Assembly: GCA_022819645.1 (NCBI GenBank)
Contig: JAJEGU010000041.1
Location: 86,846 to 150,845, forward strand
Reading direction: 5' to 3'
DNA length: 64,000 nt
Source: Pseudomonadales bacterium
Lineage (GTDB): Bacteria > Pseudomonadota > Gammaproteobacteria > Pseudomonadales > Pseudohongiellaceae
Made by a program: the position numbers and the translations under genes
Part shown: one piece after another, positions 49,135-51,324 of the stretch
How the letters are laid out: every line of letters begins with the position of its first letter
Position numbering within the stretch: position 1 is the stretch's first letter
The notes under the pieces: generated by a model
Told to the model about the DNA's origin: nothing
What the model saw: only the letters and a program-made list of their open reading frames with translations
Databases searched by the model: none

Positions 49135-49249
49135 ACCTTTGCAACAATTCGGGGACACTCGTGTTGTTTGGTTTTTGATTGGGGCCACTTGCCGTATTAA
49201 CTGCATCTTGGTAGATTGACAGCATTGAATGAATTGAGGGGTGTTGACT

Positions 49250-49501
49250 GTGGCGGTACTGACTGTGCGGAACGTGCCTGATGAGGTGCATCGCGCCCTG
49301 CGGGTGCGGGCGGCCCGGCGAGGCCGCAGCACCGAGGCTGAAGTGCGCGTCATCCTTGAGGAAGCAGTGTTGCCGGAAGGTCGGGTCGGATTGGGCTCGC
49401 TGCTGACAGCTATCGGTCGTCGTATAAAGTTGACAGACGACGAGATGGCGGATTTTGTTCGACGTGATAACTCTCCGGGCCGACCGATTGATCTCGAATG
49501 A
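49250..49501 (+). CDS. FitA-like ribbon-helix-helix antitoxin
   Basis: GTG 49250 (MAVLTVRNVPDEVHRALRVR) is the likely start, with GAGGGG upstream; the track uses 49241. 83 residues. RNVPDEVHRALRVRAARRGR then STEAEVRVILEEA closely follows Neisseria FitA. It binds DNA as a dimer and blocks the toxin. Overlaps the toxin gene by 4 nt (ATGA). Confidence 0.88.
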   Translation: MAVLTVRNVPDEVHRALRVRAARRGRSTEAEVRVILEEAVLPEGRVGLGSLLTAIGRRIKLTDDEMADFVRRDNSPGRPIDLE

Positions 49502-49914
49502 TTCTGGTTGACACTAATGTGGTGTCGGAACCACTGCGCAAAGATCCGGAACCGCACGTTGCCGACTGGCTCGACGCGCAGGCGTTGGAGACACTGCATT
49601 TGTCCGCCATCACCGTCGCCGAACTGCGTTTCGGTGTTCAGGCGTTGCCCAAGGGCCGCCGCAGGGACCGGCTGCGGGAACAACTGGAGCGGCAGATACT
49701 GCCGCTGTTCGCCGGCCGGATATTGGTATTCGATCTGGCGGCTTCGCAAGCCTACGCCGAGCTGATGGCGAAGGCACGGTCTGCCGGGCGGGCGATCTCT
49801 GTCTCGGATGGCTATATCGCGGCGACTGCCGCCGCCAATGCAATGCTTGTGGCAACACGGGATACGTCGCCATTTGAAGCGGCCGGATTGGAGACTGTGA
49901 ATCCCTTCGGTTGA
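49498..49914 (+). CDS. FitB-like PIN-domain toxin (VapC family)
   Basis: 138 residues. The acidic PIN residues are in VDTNVVSEPLR, ITVAELRFGV, VSDGYIAATAAAN and ATRDTSPFEAAG. LERQILPLFAGRILVFD matches FitB strongly. A Mg-dependent RNase held by the upstream antitoxin; the module lies in the accessory block. Confidence 0.9.
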   Translation: MILVDTNVVSEPLRKDPEPHVADWLDAQALETLHLSAITVAELRFGVQALPKGRRRDRLREQLERQILPLFAGRILVFDLAASQAYAELMAKARSAGRAISVSDGYIAATAAANAMLVATRDTSPFEAAGLETVNPFG

Positions 49915-49978: not shown

Positions 49979-50671
49979 ATGAATGAACCGGCGCCGCCGG
50001 TCGGCTTTTCCGAGCGATTTTCCGGCTGGCTGGGCAATGTCTGGCGGGAGAATCGCAACTTTCTGTTGCTGCTTTGCGCCATCGTGTTTTTCAAGAGCGC
50101 GATTGCGGATCTGAGTTCGATTTCCGGCGCGTCCATGTTGCCGACGCTCGTAGACGGCGACAAGGTCTGGGTCAACAAGCTCGCCTACGACGTGAAAGTT
50201 CCGTTTACCGATGTCACCCTGGCCAAACTGTCCGATCCGACGCGCGGCGATATCGTGATCATCGACAGCGCCCAGGCCCGCAAGCGGCTCGTGAAGCGCA
50301 TCGTCGGCGTACCCGGGGACCGGATCGAAATTCAGAACAACGCGCTGATCATCAACGGCGTCTCGGCGGACTATGAGGTGCTGTCGCGGGACGGCGGCGC
50401 CATGATTATCGAAGAGGCTCTGCCCGAGCGCAATCATCAGGTGCGGCTGACGCAATTCCCGGGTTCCAGCCGCAGTTACGGGCCTGTGGTCGTTCCCGAG
50501 GATCGCTATTTCGTACTCGGCGACAATCGCAACAGCAGCGCCGACAGCAGGGTTTACAGTTTCATACCCAGAGAAGAAATCATGGGCCGCTCGCGTTCAG
50601 TGGTTTTTTCGCTGGACAGTGACAATTATTTCCTGCCCCGCGGTAGCCGGTTCATGTCCGGGCTGGAGTAA
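49979..50671 (+). CDS. lepB: Signal peptidase I
   Basis: 230 residues. One membrane helix (FLLLLCAIVFFKSAIADL) precedes the catalytic domain. The catalytic Ser is in ISGASMLPTL, the Lys in KRLVKRIVGVPGD, and the box GDNRNSSADSR is intact. Only one clear transmembrane helix is seen. It cleaves signal peptides in the inner membrane. Whether this is the main or a second LepB cannot be told. Confidence 0.92.
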   Translation: MNEPAPPVGFSERFSGWLGNVWRENRNFLLLLCAIVFFKSAIADLSSISGASMLPTLVDGDKVWVNKLAYDVKVPFTDVTLAKLSDPTRGDIVIIDSAQARKRLVKRIVGVPGDRIEIQNNALIINGVSADYEVLSRDGGAMIIEEALPERNHQVRLTQFPGSSRSYGPVVVPEDRYFVLGDNRNSSADSRVYSFIPREEIMGRSRSVVFSLDSDNYFLPRGSRFMSGLE

Positions 50672-50760
50672 GGACCAAGGGGACCGCGAGCCCTCTACTG
50701 GTGTAAGATTCGCTGACACGAGAGCTACGCATGCGTAGCCCGAGACTATGGAGATACGGC

Positions 50761-51324
50761 ATGCAAATCCGATATTCACTGGCCGGAATGATTCTGGCCC
50801 TGTTCCTTTCCGGAACCGCTTTCGCCCAGGATTTCGACTGGGCGTCGGAATTTCCGGCAGGTGCGGCGTTGCCGCCGATTTCGGCGGAAGACCAGAACGG
50901 CGAAGTTCGCACTTTCGATGACCTCGTGGGCGCCAACGGCATGTTGTTCATGCTCAGCCGCTCATTCGACTGGTGACCCTATTGCATTTCTCAGCTCGTG
51001 CAGCTGACAGAGATTGCGGAACAGTTCGAGGAAATGGGTCTGTCCGTGGTGGCGATGACCTACGATTCGGTCGAAACGCTGAAGGAAGTCGAAGAAGACC
51101 AGGGCATCGAATTCACCTTGCTGCATGACGAGGCCATAACCCACGTCAATGCGCTGGGCATTCTGAATACCGATTACGAACCGGATTCGCGCGCTTACGG
51201 CGTTCCTTATCCGGGCATTTTCCTGATCGATTCGGATGGCGTGATCCAGGCGAAATTCGCCGAGGAAGACTATCGTGACCGGCCCGACTTCGCCTTCGTC
51301 CTGGAAGCCGCCGCCGATTTGTAA
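50761..51324 (+). CDS. Peroxiredoxin-like protein, probable selenoprotein (in-frame TGA read as Sec)
   Basis: ATG 50761 has GGAG 7 nt upstream; MQIRYSLAGMILALFLSGTA with FAQ is a signal peptide. The reading frame is interrupted only at 50974-50976 by TGA and resumes in the same frame to 51324 (TAA), 187 residues counting Sec72. Around it the sequence is MLSRSFDW-TGA-PYCISQLV, whereas peroxiredoxin-like relatives read RSxDWCPYCxxQL. The TGA thus replaces the redox cysteine, leaving U72-P-Y-C75. Downstream the thioredoxin-fold remainder (VVAMTYDSVETLKEV, YPGIFLIDSDGVIQAKF) is intact. A hairpin after the TGA fits a bacterial SECIS. It would reduce peroxides or disulfides in the periplasm. A nonsense mutation is the alternative. 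Confidence 0.75.
50987..51011 (+). promoter_or_regulatory. Candidate bacterial SECIS element
   Basis: Starting 10 nt after the TGA: UUU-C-UCAGCU, loop CGUGC, AGCUGA-C-AGA. Six consecutive upper pairs, one C-C mismatch, then three lower pairs (one G-U). The loop has 5 nt with G in its second position and begins 21 nt after the TGA. These are the features required by SelB-dependent bacterial SECIS elements. Confidence 0.65.

Follow-up and report, generated by a model that had tools for sequence, protein, structure and literature searches.

The gene at positions 50761..51324 (forward strand) of the window, i.e. the whole 64,000-nucleotide stretch of DNA analysed here, is best explained as a genuine selenoprotein gene (estimated probability ~0.96), the 187-residue product of which would carry selenocysteine (Sec) at residue 72. 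This explanation, originally put forward in a sequence-only reading of the same DNA, is supported by the Sec machinery of the source genome, the pairing of Sec and Cys forms at the same codon among relatives, the conservation of a downstream SECIS stem-loop, the co-occurrence of the UGA form with the machinery, and purifying selection on the codons following the TGA.

ORF finder output represents the gene as two pieces in the same frame (50731-50976 and 50998-51324). Read-through translation revealed a single in-frame interruption between 50761 and the closing TAA at 51322-51324, namely a TGA at 50974..50976 (forward strand; codon 72 of 187), which lies in the context SFDW-U-PYC and provides the first position of a UPYC motif. 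The earlier proposals that the two listed ORFs constitute one gene split by a single TGA, and that the remainder of this gene is intact, are thereby borne out. The ATG at 50761 appears to be the better start codon, as a GGAG sequence, read as a likely ribosome-binding site (50750..50753, forward strand), precedes it by 7 nt and the alignment of several orthologues begins at this position. The N-terminus of the product was judged by eye to represent a signal peptide, MQIRYSLAGMILALFLSGTAFA-QD (50761..50826, forward strand), consisting of a hydrophobic helix (residues 2-17 in the predicted structure) and a cleavage-like AFA-QD site, suggesting that the protein is exported. The Pfam AhpC-TSA domain (PF00578) extends across the TGA (residues 34-164; E=1.5e-22; 80.2 bits against a cut-off of 26), and the only Cys of the protein is Cys75 (50983..50985, forward strand), which provides the second of the two redox positions in UxxC. 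The gene product thus combines the two hallmarks of a UxxC peroxiredoxin (Prx)-like selenoprotein, i.e. a PF00578 match above cut-off and the U72-P-Y-C75 motif.

The source genome, a 3.10-Mb draft assembly of 85 contigs with 97.7 % completeness, was shown to encode all components of the machinery expected for a bacterial selenoprotein: tRNA-Sec (66.4 bits, cut-off 47; also reported by ARAGORN as tRNA-SeC with anticodon TCA), SelA (565 bits, cut-off 268), SelB (338 bits, cut-off 242) and SelD (255 bits, cut-off 125). The absence of selB or selC, which had been named beforehand as an argument for a pseudogene, was thus not observed, both being present. The selA, selB, selD and selC genes are located on four separate contigs (C7, C31, C38 and C51 of G000), with no compact sel operon seen in the draft. 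The selD gene (L088, G000:C38:16611-17510) is part of an 835-aa frame with an N-terminal oxidoreductase-like fusion, judged by eye to resemble pyridine-nucleotide-disulfide oxidoreductases; similar Ndh-SelD fusions have been described from ocean data (PMC2398784).

Genomes belonging to the same order and those of GTDB were searched for relatives of the gene. In total, 33 loci (including that of the window) were found to possess a TGA at the position of codon 72, each without any other in-frame stop, while 28 loci carry TGC or TGT at this codon and one distant relative carries AGC. The in-frame UGA therefore occupies the alignment column of the redox Cys of its homologues (33 TGA versus 28 TGC/TGT), as had been anticipated, and its placement is beyond coincidence, since the single in-frame stop is a TGA at the same codon in 33 of 33 UGA loci. 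Close relatives with additional stops, suggested earlier as possible evidence for a pseudogene, were not encountered among these 33 loci. Protein identities between the Sec forms and the window gene ranged from 99 % down to 32 %; because some of the loci are nearly identical copies from a single genome, the number of different Sec sequences in the 57-nt stretch beginning with the TGA is 28. Among genes with a terminal stop within the locus, this stop is UGA in two of the 33 Sec genes and in 15 of the 28 Cys/Ser genes. No relatives were found in the viral contigs searched, and the plasmids searched yielded only distant peroxiredoxin-like matches. Contigs of metagenome-assembled genomes labelled Klebsiella pneumoniae and Rhodoferax (L083 and L087) carry Pseudohongiella-like Cys genes that fall within the corresponding clade of the tree, and probably represent mislabelled bins.

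A putative SECIS upper stem-loop is located 20 nt after the UGA (50991..51007, forward strand) and comprises a 6-bp stem (UCAGCU/AGCUGA) and a 5-nt loop (CGUGC) with a G at loop position 2. With a folding energy of -12.2 kcal/mol, this element falls within the published bSECIS constraints (loop of 3-9 nt, stem of 4-16 bp, G in the first two loop positions, spacing of 16-37 nt and MFE <= -7.5), although its loop lacks the N1-N2 pair found in the commonest bSECIS loop. A probable lower helix (50982..51019, forward strand; 50982-50987 pairing with 51014-51019) is weakly supported, with 64 % of cells paired. Across the 28 distinct Sec sequences, the upper helix is 98.8 % paired and was recovered independently by RNAalifold. 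Changes on both sides were observed in three of its six pairs (alignment pairs 18-34, 21-31 and 22-30), including a C-G to U-A replacement at pair 22-30 in five Sec sequences. Covariation of the whole structure among Sec sequences was 0.245, compared with 0.155 +/- 0.015 for shuffled alignments (none of 500 shuffles scoring as high), and fell to 0.04-0.08 when the partner strand was slid, while the same test on the Cys sequences detected nothing beyond shuffles (0.130 versus 0.131).

Across 23 Sec-clade loci, no synonymous diversity was present at codons +5 to +10 after the TGA, the only such codons among the 160 scored (mean 0.49), whereas synonymous diversity in the Cys clade (22 loci) averaged 0.53 over those four codons of +6 to +10 that could be scored. 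The folding energy of the single 66-nt sequence was no better than that of shuffles (z=0.15), so that the case for the SECIS rests on comparison. Mean folding energies are likewise nearly equal for Sec (-12.0) and Cys (-11.7) sequences, the two groups being told apart only by covariation and codon invariance. An Rfam scan of the window returned nothing at gathering thresholds.

Among the genomes tested, both selA and tRNA-Sec were present in 11 of 11 carrying the UGA form versus three of eight carrying the Cys or Ser form (G045, G184 and G181), although the tested genomes are related and these counts do not represent independent events. One genome of the same family that lacks the gene encodes neither selA nor tRNA-Sec. 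Downstream of the SECIS, dN/dS values were mostly about 0.05-0.15 where dS could be estimated, indicative of purifying selection on the codons after the TGA; the nearest relatives (L048 and L049) have accumulated almost no synonymous change, rendering the ratio uninformative there.

These data bear directly on explanations of the TGA that do not involve selenium. The TGA is formally a stop codon, causes a standard ORF finder to break the gene in two, and could as such be a disabling nonsense mutation in a pseudogene. The recurrence of a lone TGA at the same codon across many separate assemblies (33 loci), at protein identities down to about 32-45 %, is at odds with this explanation, as are the dN/dS values well below 1 downstream and the invariance of the stem-loop codons; being refuted by conservation, it was rejected as exceedingly unlikely. 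A single-base sequencing or assembly error might be suspected in an 85-contig draft, yet many other assemblies share the same TGA (L047-L064 and others), which renders such an error practically negligible. Finally, leaky UGA readthrough exists in bacteria, and a residue other than Sec, such as Trp or Cys, might be inserted at the UGA by a near-cognate tRNA or by natural readthrough, with no involvement of selenium. This was considered very unlikely and rejected in view of the full Sec machinery in the genome, the alignment of the UGA to a redox Cys and the presence of a stem-loop under selection in UGA genes only. According to the selenoprotein explanation, SelB bound to this stem-loop, at a spacing of 20 nt after the UGA, would bring Sec-tRNA-Sec to the ribosome, so that codon 72 would be decoded as Sec.

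The structure predicted using AlphaFold2 (pLDDT 93.3) adopts a peroxiredoxin fold, its best structural matches being Bcp/AhpE-type peroxiredoxins (AhpE 1xxu, TM 0.74/0.89), with ResA further down. Alignment to archaeal peroxiredoxins matched U72 to the Thr and S68 to the Pro of the PxxxTxxC motif, C75 to the peroxidatic Cys and P151 to the conserved Arg, the catalytic roles of such residues in peroxiredoxins being general knowledge. The earlier placement of the TGA at the redox-active Cys thus holds with respect to the homologues, whose redox Cys it matches, but not with respect to the peroxidatic position, which is occupied by Cys75. Of the classical peroxiredoxin signature (PxxxT/SxxC plus Arg), the Cys alone is retained (S68, U72, C75 and P151). 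An alignment of 47 sequences showed residues S68, W71, U/C72, P73, C75 and P151 to be invariant; Pro151 (51211..51213, forward strand) lies three residues before a Phe, the same spacing as that of the cis-Pro of TlpA/ResA-like proteins.

The protein is accordingly best read as an exported UxxC thiol:disulfide oxidoreductase with a peroxiredoxin fold, likely to hold a U-P-Y-C redox centre in the style of thioredoxins and glutaredoxins. Most likely, U72 would act as the attacking selenolate and C75 would resolve the selenenylsulfide, resulting in thiol:disulfide (or thiol-peroxide) oxidoreductase activity, unlike that of a classical peroxiredoxin; both this chemistry and the electron donor are presumed. 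A true selenoprotein acting as a peroxidase, in which C75 would be peroxidatic and U72 resolving, would differ from this proposal in chemistry only, and would be in keeping with the peroxiredoxin fold, the peroxiredoxin Pfam domain and the position of C75. The loss of the PxxxTxxC...R signature (Pro to Ser68, Thr to Sec72 and Arg to Pro151) and the invariance of S68, U/C72 and P151 in the family argue against it, making this the less probable chemistry, albeit one to be taken seriously; peroxidase activity via U72 or C75 is possible.

A UxxC Prx-like selenoprotein family was reported from the Sargasso Sea in 2005 (PMC1088965) and as 'Prx-like 1' in the GOS data in 2008 (PMC2398784), and is listed as 'Prx-like thiol:disulfide oxidoreductase' (PF00578, UxxC/UxxU) in reviews from 2022 and 2026 (PMC9312934 and PMC13188914). 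As judged from these published descriptions, this family and the window gene share the AhpC-TSA domain (PF00578), UxxC in place of TxxU, a downstream SECIS and Cys homologues with CxxC, while the clade described here differs in adjoining lepB and in belonging to a Pseudohongiella-related lineage. The earlier statement that UxxC selenoproteins are known from bacteria and marine metagenomes agrees with this literature (PMC1088965, PMC2398784 and PMC13188914), and its designation of a 'new selenoprotein' holds for the individual gene and clade but not for the family, known since 2005. Among the papers searched, none that mentions Pseudohongiella together with selenoproteins was found, and a text search for the motif string DWUPYC produced no match.

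PrxU (TxxU) resembles the window protein in its peroxiredoxin fold and in having Sec in the active-site loop, but its Sec replaces the peroxidatic Cys, whereas that of the window protein is at the Thr position; the PrxU model NF040737 scored 21.4 bits against a cut-off of 270. SelL and SelL-related proteins share a Prx-like fold and a Sec/Cys redox pair, but the SelL motif is UxxU rather than UxxC, and the SelL-related model NF040769 scored 37.5 bits, its cut-off being 120. TlpA/ResA-type proteins are similar in being exported, in their WCxxC-type motif and in a Pro that precedes the Phe of an xFLID strand by three residues; however, the ResA family scored 27 bits against a cut-off of 170 and the predicted structure is closer to AhpE/Bcp. 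As none of the NCBIfam models reached its cut-off, the window protein receives no specific NCBIfam name.

A paralogue with the same UPYC motif is encoded elsewhere in the source genome (G000:C84:112155-112556; L091, minus strand), with a TGA at L091 2860-2862 in the context HRSADW-U-PYCKAQL. Its SECIS-like stem (CAACU/AGUUG) has been kept through compensating changes, and this second gene counts in favour of the selenoprotein explanation. This paralogue, along with two relatives of similar layout from other families (L034 and L046), possesses a long C-terminal part, which in the paralogue scored 24.5 bits against the DsbD N-terminal domain, just under the cut-off of 25, a hint that reductant may be supplied by the DsbD system. 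More speculatively, and with the odds rather against it, the gene and its paralogue may constitute an exported reducing branch dependent on selenium. In this branch, DsbD-type electrons would reach a Sec Prx-like enzyme, and the branch would have been rewired to Cys in the Pseudohongiella lineage before the Sec machinery was lost.

Phylogenetic analysis indicated that two Sec/Cys label changes are required on the tree. The 21 Pseudohongiella-type Cys sequences form one clade (support 100/98) nested among Sec forms, with Sec form L019 as its sister (support 94/81). Most simply, this topology would reflect a single replacement of Sec by Cys in the Pseudohongiella lineage, with some members retaining the machinery, the direction of change presumably being from Sec to Cys. 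Since the Cys-form genomes G184 and G045 (L020 and L021) still encode selA and tRNA-Sec, loss of the machinery apparently came after this replacement. Sec-clade genes adjoin lepB and usually a large helicase gene; in the window, a signal peptidase I-like gene (lepB; 49979..50671, forward strand; named by eye) is located directly upstream. This synteny is kept across the Sec clade but was not found near the Cys relatives, whose genes are located elsewhere, so that a transferred or paralogous Cys gene is possible. Directly upstream of lepB, the small pair of genes at 49241-49914 resembles an antitoxin with a toxin of the VapC/PIN type; no counterpart of this toxin-like gene was detected in the neighbourhood of the other orthologues.

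As a standard ORF finder halves the gene, this enzyme is easily missed in annotation throughout an entire lineage within the Pseudomonadales. With one protein occurring both as a Sec clade and as a Cys clade nested among Sec forms, and with two tested same-family Cys-form genomes retaining selA and tRNA-Sec, the clade represents a clean natural experiment, which may be used to study the replacement of Sec by Cys and the release of codons from SECIS constraint.
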